A stretch of 64,000 bases of DNA. Source: Peptostreptococcaceae bacterium pGA-8. Its GTDB lineage: Bacteria; Bacillota; Clostridia; Peptostreptococcales; Anaerovoracaceae. Under the pieces are notes generated by a model. The model was not told where the DNA came from, made no database searches, and worked only from the letters and a program-made list of their open reading frames with translations. Location: assembly GCA_900112915.1 (NCBI GenBank), contig FONK01000002.1, positions 124,001 to 188,000 of the forward strand, in the 5' to 3' direction. How positions within the stretch are numbered: position 1 is the first letter of the stretch; each line of letters starts with the position of its first letter. The position numbers and the translations under genes were made by a program. Shown one piece after another: positions 53,496-64,000 of the stretch.

Positions 53496-55541
53496 TTACA
53501 TATTCAAAGAAATATTCTCACCAAATACTTCTACAACCTTTTCTCTTACCGGTTTATTTTCATTCTTGCTCAAATTACTGTCATTTTCAAGCAGCTCTTT
53601 TGCACTTTCGCGCGCCCTTTCCAGAACGTCACCATGTCTGACTAAATCAGCTATATGCAAATCCGGCAACCCATGCTGTTTTAATCCGAAAATATCTCCG
53701 GGACCTCTCAGCCTCAAATCAGCTTCCGCAATTTCAAACCCGTCTGCAGATGAACTTAATATTTCTGCTCTTTCAACGGATTTTTCGCTTTCATTCCCAA
53801 TTAGGAGATAGCAATATGATTGTTCTTCACCTCGGCCAACCCGCCCTCTAAGCTGATGCATTTGGGCAAGGCCGAATCTTTCACAATTCTCAATTACCAT
53901 TATGGTTGCATTCGGAACATTAACACCTACTTCAATAACAACAGTTGAGACTAATAGGTCTATTTCCTTATTCATAAATGCACTCATTATGGCATCTTTC
54001 TGCTCTTGTTTTAATTCTCCGTGTAAAATCTCTACATTGAATCGAGAAAATTTGGATTTTAACTCAGAAAAAATCTCGTCTGCAGATTTTGCATCAATAG
54101 CTTCTGATTCTTCAATAAGTGGCGCTATGACATAGGCTTGCCTTCCTTTCTCCAGCTCCGCCTCAATCTTTTCATAAATCTCAATCCTGTCTATTTCATT
54201 GCGCCCGACTTCGGTTTTTATTTTCTTTCTCCCCTTAGGCATTGTTTTAATTACGGAAATATCCAAATCCCCATAAATGATTACAGCAAGGGTTCTTGGG
54301 ATTGGAGTTGCAGTCATTACCATTACATTGGTATCAGCTCCTTTCCCTGCCAAAGCAGCTCTTTGCTTTACACCGAATCTATGTTGCTCGTCAGTAATTA
54401 CAAGACCGAGATTTTTAAACTCTACATCCTCGGATATGACTGCATGTGTCCCTATCAAAACATCAATATCACCCTTTGCCAAAGCTTCTTTAATTTCTCG
54501 CTTTTCTCTCGCCTTAGTTCCTCCTACCAAAAGAGCTGTCCTTATACCATGCTTTTCGAAATCCTGCGATATTGTCATAAAATGCTGCTTTGCAAGAATT
54601 TCTGTCGGAACCATCATTACACTTTGCATTTTAGATTTTCCACAACATATCATTGCACACTGAGCTACAACGGTTTTTCCGGAGCCGACATCCCCCTGAA
54701 CTAACCTGTTCATAGGTCTGGAAGAAGATAAATCCTTCTTAATAGCCCTTAAAGCGGTTTTTTGTCCAGAAGTTAGTGAAAATGGCAAGGTGGAAATATA
54801 GCTGTCCATAAAGGAGCAGTCCACTATTTTGCCTTTTCCCCCGGAGTTACTCCGATTCCTCATATAGAAAAGACCTGTTTCAAGAACCATGAGCTCATCA
54901 AAGATCAGTCTGTATTTACCCTGTAAAACCAGCTTAGCATCTGTAGGAAAATGAATCCACTTATATGCCAGGTTAATTGTACAAAGGTTATTTTCCTCTA
55001 TAACCTTTTCCGGTAGCCATTCAAGGCTATCTTCAAGATCATCTTCCAAGCCGCTTATCCATTTTCCAATTTCTTTTCCTGAAATTGCACCTATAGACTT
55101 ATATATCGGAACAATGCCTCTGCGATCCTCGTGAGAGCCCAAGGCGTGAAATTCCGGATGTATCAGCTGTTTTTTACCCTTATTATCCTTTACAACCCCG
55201 AAAAAACTATAGCTTTGGCCTTCCTTTATCATATTGTTGACATACATGCCATTAAAAAAAAGAATTTCCATGATGCCGGTATCATCTTGTCCATATATAA
55301 TGAGTGGGCTGTTCTTTGTTCTAAAGCTCCCATAGTAATGCTTAGAGATGACTTTACATTCAATCAAAACCGTATCTTCAGCCTTAGCAAAAAACACCTT
55401 ACTGACGACTCTTTTGTCCTGATAGCCTACAGGAATTATATTTAGCAGATCCTGCACCTTATTAATACCTACATTGTGTAAAACAAGGGCCTTTTTAGGT
55501 CCTATGCCCTTTATTGCAGAAATATCATCTTTTAGGCTCAT
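53496..55541 (-). CDS. recG: ATP-dependent DNA helicase RecG
   Basis: RecG reverses stalled replication forks and branch-migrates junctions. The 681-residue protein has an N-terminal wedge (OB fold) domain. Helicase motifs are QGDVGSGKTVVAQ, ITDEQHRFGVKQR (DEQH box), TATPIPRTL, and QLRGRVGRGEEQSYCYL near the end. Length is normal. Its start overlaps the Asp23 gene end by 17 bases, and the fakA-like gene usually found between them is missing. Confidence 0.97.
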   Translation of the reverse strand: MSLKDDISAIKGIGPKKALVLHNVGINKVQDLLNIIPVGYQDKRVVSKVFFAKAEDTVLIECKVISKHYYGSFRTKNSPLIIYGQDDTGIMEILFFNGMYVNNMIKEGQSYSFFGVVKDNKGKKQLIHPEFHALGSHEDRRGIVPIYKSIGAISGKEIGKWISGLEDDLEDSLEWLPEKVIEENNLCTINLAYKWIHFPTDAKLVLQGKYRLIFDELMVLETGLFYMRNRSNSGGKGKIVDCSFMDSYISTLPFSLTSGQKTALRAIKKDLSSSRPMNRLVQGDVGSGKTVVAQCAMICCGKSKMQSVMMVPTEILAKQHFMTISQDFEKHGIRTALLVGGTKAREKREIKEALAKGDIDVLIGTHAVISEDVEFKNLGLVITDEQHRFGVKQRAALAGKGADTNVMVMTATPIPRTLAVIIYGDLDISVIKTMPKGRKKIKTEVGRNEIDRIEIYEKIEAELEKGRQAYVIAPLIEESEAIDAKSADEIFSELKSKFSRFNVEILHGELKQEQKDAIMSAFMNKEIDLLVSTVVIEVGVNVPNATIMVIENCERFGLAQMHQLRGRVGRGEEQSYCYLLIGNESEKSVERAEILSSSADGFEIAEADLRLRGPGDIFGLKQHGLPDLHIADLVRHGDVLERARESAKELLENDSNLSKNENKPVREKVVEVFGENISLNM

Positions 55542-56446: not shown

Positions 56447-57016
56447 TTATAAACTAACATCTCCATCAATTAATACGGGAGCATTCACCTCATCTGAAAG
56501 CTTCATATCTATTACTCTCTGGTTTCTGCTGCCTCTGTATTGCAAAGTCAAATCCTTCTGTTCTTCTTCAAACGGCCCGTCAACCAGTATGTCGGTCAAA
56601 TTTAAAAGCTCATCAAGAGAAGCATTGGATTTTCTCATTTCTGACAAAACCTCAAATGTATATCCGGTATATATAAGCAAATTAAGTTTTCGGGCTTTCA
56701 CTTCTTTTGCCAGCGACAAAAAACCTGCACTCTGGCACAGCGGCTCTCCTCCACTGAAGGTTACACCCTGCAGCATGGGGTTTTCATCAATTGCCTTGAC
56801 AAGCTTATCGATAGAACAGCTGTACCCACTTTTAAAGTCATGGGTTTCAGGGTTATGACAGCCCCTGCAGTTATGAGGACAGCCTTGACAAAATATTACA
56901 AACCTGATGCCCGGCCCATCGACTATTGATTCTCGCACAATTCCCGCAATTCTCAACTCATCATTATTATCTAATGTCAAGCCTTTGAATTCTTTCATGA
57001 CCATTGTTACCTTCAT
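56447..57016 (-). CDS. nrdG: Anaerobic ribonucleoside-triphosphate reductase activating protein
   Basis: NrdG is a radical SAM enzyme that puts the glycyl radical on NrdD. The Fe-S motif is CPHNCRGC, preceded by VDGPGIRFVIFCQG, and SAM binding is shown by TFSGGEPL. The start is uncertain: ATG codons at 57016, 57004 and 56998 are all possible, and 57016 (after AGAAGG) is chosen. All overlap the nrdD end by 30 to 50 bases. The protein is about 189 residues and normal for the family. It is coupled to nrdD. Confidence 0.93.
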   Translation of the reverse strand: MKVTMVMKEFKGLTLDNNDELRIAGIVRESIVDGPGIRFVIFCQGCPHNCRGCHNPETHDFKSGYSCSIDKLVKAIDENPMLQGVTFSGGEPLCQSAGFLSLAKEVKARKLNLLIYTGYTFEVLSEMRKSNASLDELLNLTDILVDGPFEEEQKDLTLQYRGSRNQRVIDMKLSDEVNAPVLIDGDVSL

Positions 57017-59219
57017 GCTCCCTTCTTCCGCATTTTGGGCAAACATTGTCTATTATACCTGTATATCCACAGCAAGGGTCACGGTCAACAGGATGGTTAA
57101 TTGAACCATATCCAACACCGCTTTCCTTCATAACTCTTACAACCTTTTCAAAGGCATCAAGATTCTTAAGCGGATCACCATCAAGCTCAATGTAGGAAAT
57201 GTGTCCTCCATTTGTTAAGGCATGATAAGGAGCTTCTTTCTTTATTTTGTCAAAAGCTCCGATATTATAGTAAACAGGAACATGGAAGCTGTTGGTGTAA
57301 TAATCTCTATCGGTTACACCCTCTATATTCCCAAATCTCTTTCTATCAAGTCTTACAAATCTTCCTGATAAGCCCTCAGCAGGAGTTGCTATTATTGACC
57401 AATTTAATCCGGTCCTCTTAGCCTCCTCATCCATACGCTTTCTCATATATGCAATTATTTCAAGGCCTAGTCTTTGAGCCTTTTCACTTTCACCATGGTG
57501 CTCTCCAATTAGAGCCTTCAAGGTTTCAGCAAGTCCGATAAAGCCTATAGTCAAGGTTCCATGCTTTATAACCTCATCAATTGAGTCTGTCACCTTAAGC
57601 TTATCCGAATCTATCCAAACTCCCTGACCCATTAAGAAAGGGAAGTTCATTACTTTCTTTTGAGACTGAATCTTAAGTCTTTCGTTCAACTGTCCAATAC
57701 AAATATCTATCATATGATCCAAGCTGTCAAAGAATATGTCTAAATCTCCCTTTGACTTTATTGCAAGTCTAGGCAGGTTGATTGAAGTAAAGGATAAGTT
57801 TCCTCTTCCATACACAATTTCTCTGTCGGGGTCATATGCATTACCCATTACTCTAGTTCTGCAGCCCATATAAGCGCATTCAGTTTCCGGATGTCCCGGC
57901 TTATAATATTGTAAATTAAACGGTGCATCTATAAATGAGAAATTAGGGAATAATCTCTTTGCAGAAGTTCTACACGCTAATTTAAATAAATCATAATTAG
58001 GATCTTCCGGATTATAGCTGACACCCTCTTTAACCTTAAAAATCTGTATTGGGAAAATAGGAGTTTCTCCATTTCCAAGGCCGGCCTCCGTAGCCTTCAT
58101 TACACATTCCATTACAAGTCTGCCTTCCGGTGATGTATCGGTGCCATAGTTGATGGAACTAAATGGAACCTGAGCACCGGCTCTGGAATGCATCGTATTA
58201 AGATTGTGTATAAGGGCTTCCATTGCCTGATAAGTCTTTCTCCTTATTTCTTTATCAACAAATTCTTTGGCTTTTTTCTGAACCTTAGCTATAAGCTCCT
58301 TATCGGCAAACTTAGTAAGCTCTTCCATTTCAACAGCTGTATAGTCATCATCCCAATTCATAGCAGGATACCTGCCGGTTTCAGCTTCTATTTTCTTTCC
58401 AAGCTCTTTTATCGCTTCCGGACCATTCTCAAGCAAATCTTCAAACTCCAGAAGCTTACCGAGATTGGTCCAATATAGCTTTTTATAAGTTTTTTTAACG
58501 CCCGGAGCCATGCCATAGTCAAAATTCGGAACTGATTGGCCACCATGCTGATCGTTTTGGTTTGACTGAATTGCAATACAAGCAAGTGCCGCATAGCTTT
58601 CAATGTCGTTAGGCTCTCTAAGATGTCCATGACCTGTTGAGAATCCTCCCTTTAACAATCCGACCAGATCAATCTGACAGCAAGTCATAGTTAATGTATA
58701 GAAATCCATATCGTGAATATGAATGTCACCGGCTTCATGAGCTTTAACAAACTTAGGATCTATTACATACATTTTATAGAACTCTTTTGCACCTTCTGAA
58801 CCATATTTCAGCATGGTTCCCATAGCCGTATTCCCGTCTATATTGGCATTTTCACGCTTAACATCATTATCCTTGGCATCTAAGTATGTAAGATCCTCAT
58901 ATATCTTCATGAGCTTAGTATTCATATCTCTGACACGAGTCCGCTCCGCTCTATAAAGTATATACTCCTTAGCTGTTCTTGCATGTCCGTTTTCAATCAG
59001 TATCTTTTCAACCGTATCCTGAATCTGTTCAACAGTAGGAGTTGTATTATGACAAATTTCCAAAAGATAAAGCTCTACCTGTCTGGCCAGATATTCAGAC
59101 ATATCCCTGTCATTTCCACCTAAAACCTGAGCGGCTTTAAAAATAGCATCTGCAATTTTTTCCACATCAAAATTAACCGTTCTGCCATCTCTTTTAATTA
59201 TCTTTTTGATTCCGTCCAT
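56967..59219 (-). CDS. nrdD: Anaerobic ribonucleoside-triphosphate reductase (class III)
   Basis: NrdD makes dNTPs without oxygen. Residues 3-95 are an ATP-cone for allosteric control by ATP/dATP. The catalytic barrel has TLTMTCCQIDLVGLL and the C-terminal radical site DPCCGYTG, with Gly near 718. CGYTG and CPKC also bear the structural zinc Cys residues. At 750 residues it is full length. The ATG at 59219 has AGGAG eight bases before it. An NrdR-like box lies in its leader. Confidence 0.97.
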   Translation of the reverse strand: MDGIKKIIKRDGRTVNFDVEKIADAIFKAAQVLGGNDRDMSEYLARQVELYLLEICHNTTPTVEQIQDTVEKILIENGHARTAKEYILYRAERTRVRDMNTKLMKIYEDLTYLDAKDNDVKRENANIDGNTAMGTMLKYGSEGAKEFYKMYVIDPKFVKAHEAGDIHIHDMDFYTLTMTCCQIDLVGLLKGGFSTGHGHLREPNDIESYAALACIAIQSNQNDQHGGQSVPNFDYGMAPGVKKTYKKLYWTNLGKLLEFEDLLENGPEAIKELGKKIEAETGRYPAMNWDDDYTAVEMEELTKFADKELIAKVQKKAKEFVDKEIRRKTYQAMEALIHNLNTMHSRAGAQVPFSSINYGTDTSPEGRLVMECVMKATEAGLGNGETPIFPIQIFKVKEGVSYNPEDPNYDLFKLACRTSAKRLFPNFSFIDAPFNLQYYKPGHPETECAYMGCRTRVMGNAYDPDREIVYGRGNLSFTSINLPRLAIKSKGDLDIFFDSLDHMIDICIGQLNERLKIQSQKKVMNFPFLMGQGVWIDSDKLKVTDSIDEVIKHGTLTIGFIGLAETLKALIGEHHGESEKAQRLGLEIIAYMRKRMDEEAKRTGLNWSIIATPAEGLSGRFVRLDRKRFGNIEGVTDRDYYTNSFHVPVYYNIGAFDKIKKEAPYHALTNGGHISYIELDGDPLKNLDAFEKVVRVMKESGVGYGSINHPVDRDPCCGYTGIIDNVCPKCGRREHEGNNGHERIQRLDIR

Positions 59220-59241
59220 CACCAAAACTCCTAATCACCAT

Positions 59242-59325: not shown

Positions 59326-59865
59326 TTACCTATCATGAATACTTTCATAATAGTCAGCACGAAGCATAGACATCAAAATTAAATCCAGATATTTCCCATT
59401 CTTCTTCCCTGAATTTCGCATTGTTCCTTCTCGCTTAAATCCTATTTTCTGATACAGCTGTTGAGCAATTATATTCTTAGTCATATAATCCAGTGTAACA
59501 CGCTCTCTATGCATATTAATAAAAGCATATTCCAGGAAAAGTCTTAATGCCTCTTCACCGTAGCCCTTCCCCCTGTTTAATTTAGGGGCAATATATATTC
59601 TTGTAATATCGAGCGAATCACATTTATCGTTTATATTCGTGATAAAAAGCTTACCAATCGGCTCATCAGTCTCCTTAAGGCAAATAGTAAAAATCTCTTT
59701 TGACGGATCAATCTTGCACTTGATAAACTCCGTTACTACGTCTTCATATGTCAATCCTTCATCCATCGTAAAAAATTCTGTAACCTCCGGCATAACCTCC
59801 CATTGGGCAAAATACCGGCAATCCTCAAAAACAGCATGTCTGATTATTAAATTCTTAGATTCCAT
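59326..59865 (-). CDS. GNAT family N-acetyltransferase
   Basis: This 179-residue protein is a GNAT acetyltransferase of the RimJ/RimL type. RIYIAPKLNRGKGYGEEALRL holds the acetyl-CoA loop (RGKGYG). LYQKIGFKREGTMRNSG is the usual C-terminal strand. The substrate is not evident; protein N-termini, sugars or polyamines are all possible. The ATG at 59865 has GGGGGAGG before it. It stands alone between nrdD and a divergent gene. Confidence 0.88.
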   Translation of the reverse strand: MESKNLIIRHAVFEDCRYFAQWEVMPEVTEFFTMDEGLTYEDVVTEFIKCKIDPSKEIFTICLKETDEPIGKLFITNINDKCDSLDITRIYIAPKLNRGKGYGEEALRLFLEYAFINMHRERVTLDYMTKNIIAQQLYQKIGFKREGTMRNSGKKNGKYLDLILMSMLRADYYESIHDR

Positions 59866-59990
59866 ATGACCTCCCCCTACAAGCATAAAAAACTTGTCAC
59901 ATCAACTTTCATTTGATATTATTATATATGATTTTACTGGAAAAATAAACGGGAAAAGCAAATATTTCCTAGGAAATAAAGGAGATTTTC

Positions 59991-61403
59991 ATGAAGCGAA
60001 ATACTTTTAAACATATAATAATCGGTCTCACTATATTAGCTCTGCTGGGACTTGCAATCCTTGGATATTTCATCGGAATAAGCCCCAGTAAAGAGCTTAA
60101 AAAGGAACTTGAAAAAAGAGTTTTATCCTACGAAACCGATATTACCGACTCTATAGAACACATAAAAACAGCAGAAAAATTTAAGGCATTTTTGATAAAC
60201 TGGGCAGATGAAAAAGGCGTGGAATGCAGATATGACAAGGAAGGAAATGTAATAATGCACAGAGAGGCCTCATCTCTTTTTACAGATGCCGCACCTACAA
60301 TTTTAGTATGCTCATATGATATAAGCGACTTAAACTCAACTGTTGACCCTCTTACCATGGCTTTTTCCGCATTAAAGGTTAACAAAGAAATGGGAGACTT
60401 GACCGTTATTATAACCTCTGATGAAGGCAGAGCCTTCTCAGGTGCTAAAACGCTCGATCCTTCGTATTTCCCTGACAATGCAAATGTTTTCACATTATCT
60501 CAAGGGAACAAGCATATGTATTCCTTAAATTCCGGAGGTTCATCCAGCTACATGTTTACGAGGTCCCTATCCTATGAAAAACCAAAGGGTACCAAGGCAT
60601 ATAGAATAAATATTTCCGGAGCTCCGGGGGGATTCCCTGATACAAGAATTTCATACTATCCTAATCCTGTAAATGAATTGGGAAAGCTGCTGGCTAAATT
60701 TCAAGGCAGTTCTCTTATTTTCGATTTAGCTGAAATTCAAGGTGGAAGTAACAGCAATGTATACCCTACCTCTGCAACTGCATTGATCACCATGGATGAA
60801 GATAATGTTGAACGGTTTATTGCAAAGATGGACACATATATTAAAAATTTTACTGATGAATATGGTAAGGATTATCCTAATGTAATCGTAACCTATAGCG
60901 AAGCGGAAATGCCTGAGAATGTTATTTCAAAAAGTGATGCAAATCCTTTGTATAGCCTTCTCTATACTCTCAATCACGGTGTATATTATAAAAATGAAGA
61001 CGGTGATGTTGTATCAATTTCAAGTGTTAACTATTTCAGCACCGGTGATGATAGGCTGCAAATCGGTACATCAGCTTCCAGCTTGACTGATTCAAATTTA
61101 AAGGAAATAGATACTGCATTTGAAACTTTAGCTGGACTTTCAGAGTTTACCTTTGAAAAAACAGCCTCAAGTATGTTTTGGTCATCTGCAGAAAGTCAGC
61201 TGTCTGACATTTTTGCCTTGGCTTATAAATCATTTACCGGCAGAGCTATAGAATATATAGACTCGGTGCCTGCAACGTTGGCACCCATTATCGCAGAAAA
61301 AAATCCGAATATAAGGATAATTAACATTACCACTAATTCGGATTATGTTCTTCAAGATGTAGGAAGCCTTGTAACATTGATGACTATTCCGGGCAATAAA
61401 TAA
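59991..61403 (+). CDS. Membrane-anchored PepD-like (M20) protein, probable pseudo-peptidase
   Basis: Residues 8-30 are one membrane helix, and the rest is outside the cell by prediction. Residues 60-470 follow the order of E. coli PepD: NWADEKGVECRYDKEGNV, a long mid-domain with NISGAPGGFPDTR, and EIQGGSNSNVYPTSATA. Yet metal-ligand sites seem changed. Ser108 stands where PepD has His80, Ser170 where it has Asp173, Phe215 replaces the His in GGHSG, and no His matches the last ligand. Asp110, Asp119 and Asp144-Glu145 remain. It may bind dipeptides or muropeptides without cutting them. AAAGGAG precedes the ATG. Confidence 0.7.
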   Translation: MKRNTFKHIIIGLTILALLGLAILGYFIGISPSKELKKELEKRVLSYETDITDSIEHIKTAEKFKAFLINWADEKGVECRYDKEGNVIMHREASSLFTDAAPTILVCSYDISDLNSTVDPLTMAFSALKVNKEMGDLTVIITSDEGRAFSGAKTLDPSYFPDNANVFTLSQGNKHMYSLNSGGSSSYMFTRSLSYEKPKGTKAYRINISGAPGGFPDTRISYYPNPVNELGKLLAKFQGSSLIFDLAEIQGGSNSNVYPTSATALITMDEDNVERFIAKMDTYIKNFTDEYGKDYPNVIVTYSEAEMPENVISKSDANPLYSLLYTLNHGVYYKNEDGDVVSISSVNYFSTGDDRLQIGTSASSLTDSNLKEIDTAFETLAGLSEFTFEKTASSMFWSSAESQLSDIFALAYKSFTGRAIEYIDSVPATLAPIIAEKNPNIRIINITTNSDYVLQDVGSLVTLMTIPGNK

Positions 61404-61408
61404 AATCC

Positions 61409-62263
61409 TTATTCATACCAGGTCTTCTTAACATATTCAAGGTTAAGATCAACATTGTTTCCTATTCCGGAGACTCTTCCATGCTGAGTAAACTGCCAAA
61501 ATCTATGAGTAAATTCATAGTCATTCAGGGTTGTGTAGTATGCCAGCCAAGTATCATAATTTGAAAGCTTATCCATATTTACGGATTTTGACAGCCATGT
61601 TGGATTACCATATATGGCCGGTGTAAATCCGTATTTTTTTATTACTTTGCAGAAGGCGTCGGCAATTTCCGTCTTTTCTTCCTTGCTGAGACTGCTTGTT
61701 CTTTCAGTCCCATCTATTGGCTCCATATCAAAAACTACCGGATAGGTTACACCCTTTCCTTTTATTTCACTTATAACGTATTCAGCCTCTTTTATGCCTT
61801 CCTCCTTTGTGCTGGCTTGAGAAAAGAAGTATATTCCGATATCTATACCGGCTTTTTTTGCTCCATTGATGTTTTTATCAAATTGCTTATCCTTAACAAT
61901 TTTTCCGGAATGCCATCCGCTATATCCCAGTCTAATGAATGCAAACTTAATGTCATCTCCCTTTACCTGATTCCAGTCAATTGTTCCTTGGTGTTCGGAA
62001 ACATCTATGCCCAGATTTGATTTATAGTTATCATCATTATAGCTAAATATGCCGTTGGACTCTCTATAGCCTTCCTGTATGTAATCTGTGGGCTTCTGAA
62101 GCATTTGTTTTGATGATTGACGACTGCCTATATAGTCACAGCTGCGTATAGCTAAAAAAACGGCAGTGCATATTATGATGAACAGTAAAATTAACCTGGT
62201 TGCAAATTTTCTGCGTTTCTTTTTCTTTAATTTTCTTGTTTTTCTATTGGAAGTTTTATTCAT
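61409..62263 (-). CDS. GH25 family lysozyme (membrane-anchored muramidase)
   Basis: This 284-residue protein has a strongly basic N-terminus (about residues 7-20), one membrane helix (22-40) and a GH25 lysozyme domain (84-280). The catalytic region shows Asp87 in GIDVSEHQG and Asp179 with Glu181 in VVFDMEPIDG. It should cut the MurNAc-GlcNAc bond of peptidoglycan at the cell surface. The stop lies five bases from the stop of the convergent PepD-like gene. It is divergent from the amidohydrolase gene. Confidence 0.92.
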   Translation of the reverse strand: MNKTSNRKTRKLKKKKRRKFATRLILLFIIICTAVFLAIRSCDYIGSRQSSKQMLQKPTDYIQEGYRESNGIFSYNDDNYKSNLGIDVSEHQGTIDWNQVKGDDIKFAFIRLGYSGWHSGKIVKDKQFDKNINGAKKAGIDIGIYFFSQASTKEEGIKEAEYVISEIKGKGVTYPVVFDMEPIDGTERTSSLSKEEKTEIADAFCKVIKKYGFTPAIYGNPTWLSKSVNMDKLSNYDTWLAYYTTLNDYEFTHRFWQFTQHGRVSGIGNNVDLNLEYVKKTWYE

Positions 62264-63539: not shown

Positions 63540-63555
63540 GAATTCCTATAGCTCC
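63530..63555. repeat. Perfect 26-base palindrome over two convergent stop codons
   Basis: The arms, GGAGCTATAGGAA and its complement, meet at 63542/63543 with no loop. They cover the TAG stop of the amidohydrolase and the TAG stop of the convergent gene. Both proteins end in Glu-Leu coded GAG CTA. No T-run follows on either side, so it is not a standard terminator. Confidence 0.85.
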
Positions 63556-64000
63556 AATTTCATATCTCCATCCTTTATCCATCCTATTTTTTTTAGAATT
63601 GTATAGAAAGCAAGACTTAGGACCATTGGTAGAAAAAAGTGTACCACTAAGATTCCTAAATATATAGATGCTGCACTTGCACCGGTTTCTGCCATAGCTG
63701 TAATAGTTCCTATTTGACCGACAAGACCGCTTGTTCCCATACCTGATCCGATAGGTATATTCTCCATTTTGAATACCAGTGTGGATACCGGCCCCGTTAT
63801 TGCCGATGCCAATGTTGGCGGTATCCAAATCTTCCAATTTTTCAAAATATTAGGTACCTGAAGCATAGATGTTCCTACTCCCTGAGCAAATAACCCTCCC
63901 CAGCCATTTTCTTTAAAGCTTATAACGGCAAATCCGACCATCTGAGCGCAGCAACCCGCAGTTGCAGCTCCTCCTGCAAGACCACCTAAAGAAAGCATCA
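63546..64000 (-). CDS. PTS transporter subunit IIC-like membrane protein (5' end outside window)
   Basis: This is the C-terminal part, about 151 residues, of a membrane protein whose start lies beyond the window. Four hydrophobic segments and GMGTSGLVGQIGT, plus GGLFAQGVGTSMLQVPNILKN, match the PTS_EIIC_2 family, whose members lack the usual IIA and IIB parts. The sugar or other substrate is unknown. Its stop is seven bases from the stop of the M20 gene, inside the 26-base palindrome. Confidence 0.8.
   Translation of the reverse strand, partial: MLSLGGLAGGAATAGCCAQMVGFAVISFKENGWGGLFAQGVGTSMLQVPNILKNWKIWIPPTLASAITGPVSTLVFKMENIPIGSGMGTSGLVGQIGTITAMAETGASAASIYLGILVVHFFLPMVLSLAFYTILKKIGWIKDGDMKLEL

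Follow-up and report, generated by a model that had tools for sequence, protein, structure and literature searches.

The open reading frame at 59991..61403 (+) of the 64,000-nucleotide stretch analysed here (the window) raises the question of what a membrane-anchored protein built like the dipeptidase PepD can be doing when the metal ligands of PepD are gone from it. The frame encodes 470 aa and was recognized in the list of open reading frames, by profile search and phmmer, and from a fold model. It can be taken as a real gene because of its length, its ATG start, the Shine-Dalgarno-like sequence AAAGGAG situated 6 bases 5' of the ATG (59978..59984, +) and the occurrence of relatives at the same locus. 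Between the frame and the divergently oriented GNAT gene lies a promoter-like sequence (TTGTCA-17-TATTAT, its second hexamer preceded by TG; 59894..59922, +); it is a consensus match only, and such matches occur at chance level (11 found, against a mean of 10.4 in shuffles).

Homology to PepD and state of the active site

Comparison of the protein with the NCBIfam model TIGR01893 gave an E-value of 4.8e-33 and 114.6 bits, short of the curated cut-off of 343.75; the protein is a PepD homologue but, by the cut-off rule, not a member of TIGR01893. A phmmer search of the PDB returned the M20-family PepD structures 2qyv (Haemophilus somnus; 6.6e-17) and 3mru (Vibrio alginolyticus; 2.5e-15). In the Pfam scan, PF07687 (M20_dimer) scored 20.5 bits, just below its gathering threshold of 21, and PF01546 (Peptidase_M20) gave no match at E<=1. 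The AlphaFold2 model (mean pLDDT 90.3, pTM 0.82), made from an input alignment of 24 sequences of which four were complete enzymes, has the two-domain fold of PepD. Foldseek matched it to 2qyv with an E-value of 2.1e-33, and VIA aligned 428 residues to 2qyv (Z 34.2, rmsd 3.5) and 424 residues to 3mru (Z 29.5, rmsd 6.9). The first-pass annotation of this locus, made from the letters alone, had stated that the sequence follows PepD along its whole length; profile, phmmer and model bear this out across nearly the whole protein. What sets the protein apart from PepD, besides the low profile score, is the loss of ligands, a deleted segment and an N-terminal anchor. A second PepD of the same genome (L006) is encoded elsewhere, has no anchor and carries all five ligands. 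An initial family guess, PF03577 (C69), was discarded, as this is a separate dipeptidase family whose sole match in the genome is another gene. Locus L001 (G000:C8:21290-22477) contains a C69-family peptidase match within a 691-aa open frame, the model itself having only 402 positions.

In Vibrio PepD, according to PMC6271292, the metal ligands are His80, Asp119, Glu150 (whose role is called ambiguous), Asp173 and His461, the catalytic residues are Asp82 and Glu149, and three lid residues, His219, Asn260 and Arg369, are described as serving the carboxyl end of the substrate. The corresponding positions in the window protein were read from a 98-sequence alignment, not from model coordinates. 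The five ligand columns hold S, S, G, S and L, so that no ligand is present. The His80-x-Asp82 motif has become S108-Y109-D110 (60312..60320, +), in which the ligand is gone and Asp82 is kept. Shortly thereafter, at about residues 111-119 (60321..60347, +), lies the approximate site of a deletion, where the protein lacks a 31-residue segment found ahead of Asp119 in the active enzyme (residues 81-111 of L006). The Glu149-Glu150 pair reads E145-G146 (60423..60428, +), in which the catalytic Glu149 is preserved and the ligand lost, and S170 (60498..60500, +) stands for ligand Asp173. Within the lid, or dimerisation, domain (approximately residues 183-395, boundaries by eye; 60537..61175, +), F215 replaces the His219 of GGHSG (60633..60635, +), N256 is Asn260 preserved (60756..60758, +) and S363 occupies the place of the substrate-binding Arg369 (61077..61079, +). 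Finally, the C-terminal region, at approximately residues 448-454 (61332..61352, +), is devoid of the His461 loop.

The hand alignment behind the first-pass annotation had already placed Ser at His80, Ser at Asp173 and Phe at the His of GGHSG, noted the missing last His and counted Asp110 among the residues that remain, and on all these points the larger alignment agrees, Asp110 being PepD Asp82. Its further statement that Asp119 remains is not supported: the PepD Asp119 column holds Ser116, and the window's D119 lies three residues on, so that a match hinges on gap placement. On the other hand, G146 for Glu150, S363 for Arg369 and the 31-residue deletion are losses beyond those originally listed.

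Anchoring, distribution and history of the family

A membrane helix that PepD lacks was another element of the first reading. It is found at residues 3-28 of the AlphaFold2 model (59997..60074, +), where hydropathy over 15 residues peaks at 2.91. Anchoring is general: each protein from 41 loci (the window's and 40 others hand-picked for long contigs and genus spread) has a lipobox or a membrane helix. Lipoboxes number 29 (23 found by script and six by eye), the other 12 proteins, including those of the window's genus, having a plain membrane helix. Since LspA was found in all ten genomes searched, the window's among them, loss of lipoprotein processing does not account for the plain helix. The pseudo-PepD is probably held outside the membrane, as judged from its N-terminus. 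Control of the cytosolic PepD through hetero-dimers was discounted, since the two proteins are expected on opposite sides of the membrane.

A search of genome contigs with the single protein found no relative; a scan with an alignment of relatives sharing FELASFxGG succeeded. A profile built from 12 relatives identified the family at E<=1e-50 in 195 of 349 Anaerovoracaceae genomes (107 of the 156 of good quality; 37 of 92 genera); the other 154 genomes gave no match at this threshold. Across the 41 loci, His80 and His461 are never kept, Glu150 is kept in two, Asp119 in five and Asp173 in eight; 29 proteins have no ligand at all, nine have one, three have two and none has more than two of the five. 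By contrast, the complete set is present in all 38 PepDs used for comparison, L006 among them. Ligand loss therefore recurs among relatives, which is where the first reading had proposed to look. The catalytic residues fare variably (Asp82 in 18 of the 41, Glu149 in eight), as do the lid residues (Asn260 in 14, Arg369 in 11, His219 in none). Residue-by-residue examination of 53 of the 195 carriers, ten of them picked for low score, uncovered no full ligand set; nor is there one in an eleventh low scorer, G193, just below the threshold. In 20 more genomes with weak matches, the anchored proteins (by eye) lack ligands, whereas the unanchored full-length proteins of this set keep everything (HDDEEDHNRH, Leu standing for Asn260 in one of them). 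Within this 30-locus weak-match set, L177, L178, L189 and L199 are partial frames and L202-L206 duplicate other loci; the tabulations omit L035/L157 (a 249-aa fragment), L034 and L015.

Outside the Anaerovoracaceae, overlapping samples at the levels of phylum, class and order (393, 391 and 398 genomes, with at most four candidates scored per genome) gave a best score of 185 bits, and all matches examined were complete enzymes. Seven non-family genomes of the phylum sample matched at E<=1e-45; five (L162, L163-L165 and G430 as L131) keep all ligands, G1012 and G918 falling outside the five examined. All ligands are likewise kept in the 23 loci of the class sample (L130-L152) and in the three examined of the six non-family genomes matching at E<=1e-45 in the order sample (G041, G046 and G052; loci L023, L022 and L021). 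Restriction of the family to the Anaerovoracaceae holds only for the genomes sampled.

The surroundings of the gene are shared as well. Upstream of it lie, all on the minus strand, the divergent GNAT acetyltransferase gene (59326..59886; Pfam), whose cluster holds the same divergent position in 24 of the 41 loci, a 752-aa gene (56967..59225; cluster in 22 loci), which we take by recognition to be NrdD-like, and a 681-aa gene (53496..55541; cluster in 35 loci), presumably RecG-like on the same grounds. In 35 of the 41 loci the recG-like gene is found no more than about 9.5 kb away, and all but one of these have it on the opposite strand (34). It is absent from the other six stretches and from those of L116, L121, L153, L166, L167, L168 and L169, some stretches being short. 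On the strength of the shared locus, an assembly artefact or a recent transfer was rejected. An open reading frame at the window's edge (63546-63998, -) looks on inspection like a transporter subunit with several membrane passes. A link to sporulation was also considered and rejected: in 15 genomes searched, Spo0A matches do not track the gene. There was no Spo0A match in the window's genome or in carriers G015, G009 and G098 and weak matches only in four carriers of the same genus, while Spo0A did match in G006 and G014, neither of which has the gene at E<=1e-45.

The 31-residue segment divides the family into two forms. At most three of its 31 columns are filled in 49 short forms, all 31 in nine long forms; yet these long forms have only zero to two of the five ligands. 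L116, L121-L124, L020, L027 and L033 resemble the window protein in their degraded ligands and differ from it in retaining the segment. L123, L124, L020 and L027 lie near the recG-like gene; L116 and L121 have none within the stretch examined. In a tree from which L160 and L161 (copies of L130 and L131) were omitted, the 49 short forms cluster together with SH-aLRT 100, and a further split, likewise at 100, sets the 38 enzymes and L030 apart from the remaining inactive forms; the tree comes from a quick search, has several long branches, that of L030 included, and has no outgroup. The simple reading, we infer, is that an anchored copy lost its metal site once and that the segments were deleted afterwards. 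Other anchored homologues are known from three MAGs titled Synergistales, Acidaminococcaceae and Clostridia: L125, L126 and L127 have, like the window protein, an N-terminal export signal by sequence (a lipobox in L127, a hydrophobic N-terminus in L125 and L126). Unlike the window protein, they have all five ligands, and the tree places them with the enzymes, not as sisters of the inactive group. No anchored PepD with complete ligands was seen among the Anaerovoracaceae genomes examined.

Two long forms deserve separate mention. L030 (L153 9015-10652), a ligand-poor lipoprotein from the Anaerovoracaceae, sits on a long branch among the complete enzymes and has no recG-like gene in its 20-kb stretch; it may represent a second, independent inactivation or a misplaced long branch. 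The protein at L168 7201-8868, a long form, has by alignment His80, Asp119, Glu150, Asn260 and Arg369, hence three of the five ligands, and is without Asp82, Glu149, Asp173, His219 and His461, a half-way state.

Selection, the lid domain and competing readings

In ten of ten pairs of family members, pN (0.07-0.44) lies below pS (0.68-0.84). Seven of these pairs are saturated in dS; the three computable ones gave dN/dS values of 0.06 (L067/L068), 0.04 (L069/L071) and 0.09 (L082/L098), at dS of 1.8-3.4, which is near saturation. The recG-like gene gave 0.07 for L067/L068 and 0.05 for L069/L071. These values indicate that the family is under purifying selection, the estimate being rough with dS so close to saturation. 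The protein evolves fast nonetheless: identity to L066, from the same genus, is 40% for the pseudo-PepD, 51% for the recG-like product and 84% for the nrdD-like product. A homologue without the metal and substrate residues, apparently kept by selection (within the roughness of the estimate), fits the description of a pseudopeptidase as far as sequence goes. The earlier proposal of an exported pseudo-peptidase is accordingly well supported at the level of sequence, with no more than two ligands in any of the 41 proteins, an anchor in each and pN far below pS.

Constraint is distributed over the two domains in a manner opposite to that of the enzymes. Of the two parts, the lid shows the higher identity in 1027 of 1176 pairs of short forms and in one of 703 enzyme pairs. 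Mean identities in the 38 enzymes are 0.347 for the lid and 0.513 for the catalytic part; in the 49 short forms they are 0.297 and 0.229, and the lid is on average the higher for each of the 49. Three alternative domain boundaries gave 1005-1088 of the 1176 short-form pairs and 0-4 of the 703 enzyme pairs. Long forms fall in between, with the lid higher in ten of 36 pairs (nine sequences). Positions common in short forms and not in enzymes include W71 (0.98), Y325 (0.98), T326 (0.94) and P308 (0.96). This inversion could reflect only a freed catalytic part, with no new task for the lid.

Taken together, we think it probable that the gene specifies an old, lineage-wide, exported pseudo-dipeptidase that uses its lid for binding or as a scaffold. 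By sequence and model, a protein with the PepD fold and an N-terminal anchor has lost the two-metal site and most of the substrate-binding residues, presumably with the ligands going before the surrounding segments were deleted. Judging from the residues that remain, it would have no dipeptidase activity, and its present work would be binding rather than cutting. The lid, the dimerisation domain in PepD, would be the likely contact surface because it is the better conserved part, and might serve self-association or contact with an envelope partner.

An alternative is that cutting was lost while short peptides are still held in the old cleft, in the manner of a substrate-binding protein. We regard this as unlikely, if worth keeping in mind. 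An exported protein would encounter peptides, the modelled protein keeps the two-domain fold, and, given that Asp82, Glu149 and Asn260 are kept in the window protein, Asn260 in 14 and Arg369 in 11 of the 41, weak ligand binding may persist. Yet the former catalytic part is less conserved than the lid, and the Pfam scans of neighbouring genes brought up no peptide transporter, an ABC-type ATPase cluster, of unassigned class, being found in six loci. The residues that hold the substrate in PepD are also mostly missing: in the mutants described in PMC6271292, Arg369Ala abolishes activity and Asn260Ala roughly halves it, though His219Ala hardly alters it. The suggestion in the first-pass annotation that the protein may sense or hold peptides is therefore disfavoured in its canonical form, since the window protein keeps only Asn260 of the three lid residues and, across the 41 loci, His219 is never kept and Arg369 in just over a quarter. 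A reworked cleft could bind something.

The neighbouring muramidase gene suggests a different role. As the first reading had it, this gene lies tail to tail with the pseudo-PepD gene (61409..62263, -); Pfam identifies it as a GH25, and the gap measures 5 bases. Degenerate LytM proteins position amidases, and by analogy the pseudo-PepD might bind or position peptidoglycan enzymes, namely the GH25 in the window and, at other loci, a class A penicillin-binding protein. A GH25 gene is the immediate downstream neighbour in ten of the 41 loci, and one same-strand downstream cluster occurs in five (L076, L085, L087, L089 and L101); the L076 copy, the only one scanned, has transglycosylase and transpeptidase domains, as in a class A penicillin-binding protein. 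However, the tail-to-tail arrangement means that the GH25 gene is not co-transcribed, and among 22 other downstream neighbours scanned with Pfam only that of L081, with cell-wall-binding repeats and an amidase-like domain, is of wall type, the remainder being metabolic, transport, regulatory, redox or helicase genes or matchless. The adjacency is thus real and the muramidase link weak: as the GH25 gene adjoins in only part of the family, it is a neighbour and not a fixed partner. We consider such a wall-directed role quite unlikely. More generally, downstream genes vary, and the neighbourhood was rejected as a guide to function.

Another active site could have taken the place of the zinc site, perhaps centred on Cys107 (60309-60311), beside the lost His80. 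Cys occupies this column in 39 of the 49 short forms and in five of the nine long ones; in the enzymes it is mostly Gly (33 of 38). New catalysis is nevertheless very improbable in our judgement, for the column has Ala, Val or Met in ten of the 49 short forms, Cys107 lies in a strand of the model, where it may be buried packing, and no His, Asp or Glu is found among the positions conserved in at least 75% of the short forms. That the gene is a functionless, decaying relic or an assembly artefact can be dismissed almost outright: the active-site residues are gone and six matches (G002:C1, G333:C13, G161:C43, G234:C41, G168:C14 and G230:C221) have one stop inside the match, but the other matches, among the matches listed, have no internal stop, the locus is shared in many genera and pN is far below pS. 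The single stops in the six may mark the ends of genes, stem from errors or signal local decay.

Returning to the pseudo-dipeptidase that acts through its lid, a more specific version may be put forward tentatively, as a conjecture with somewhat less than even prospects: the proteins might form a hitherto undescribed family on the surface of Anaerovoracaceae, its lid converted to serve a widely kept envelope complex as receptor or assembly module and its former catalytic domain reduced to a support.

Place among pseudopeptidases

Membrane-anchored pseudo-peptidase ectodomains whose fold is used for binding are familiar from the transferrin receptor and nicastrin. These are eukaryotic proteins of another family, and the comparison concerns only how they work. 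Metallopeptidase pseudopeptidases of other families, covered by a review (PMC11266112), have likewise lost catalytic residues and kept the fold, with a presumed binding or scaffold role; in that review, 'M20' occurs twice, both times within reference identifiers. Searches of open-licence PMC papers turned up no title or abstract opening that names an M20/PepD pseudoenzyme of this kind. Pseudopeptidases as such are already known; one of the M20/PepD type with this breadth was not found in the literature searched.

The Anaerovoracaceae thus have a dead-looking, anchored dipeptidase kept alongside a complete, unanchored one, with intermediates surviving. Because intermediate forms persist, the route from enzyme to binding protein is open to direct comparison step by step. 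A conserved pseudoenzyme in bacteria readily takes the name of the enzyme it looks like; if the present proteins were counted as dipeptidases, peptide breakdown by the Anaerovoracaceae would be overstated.
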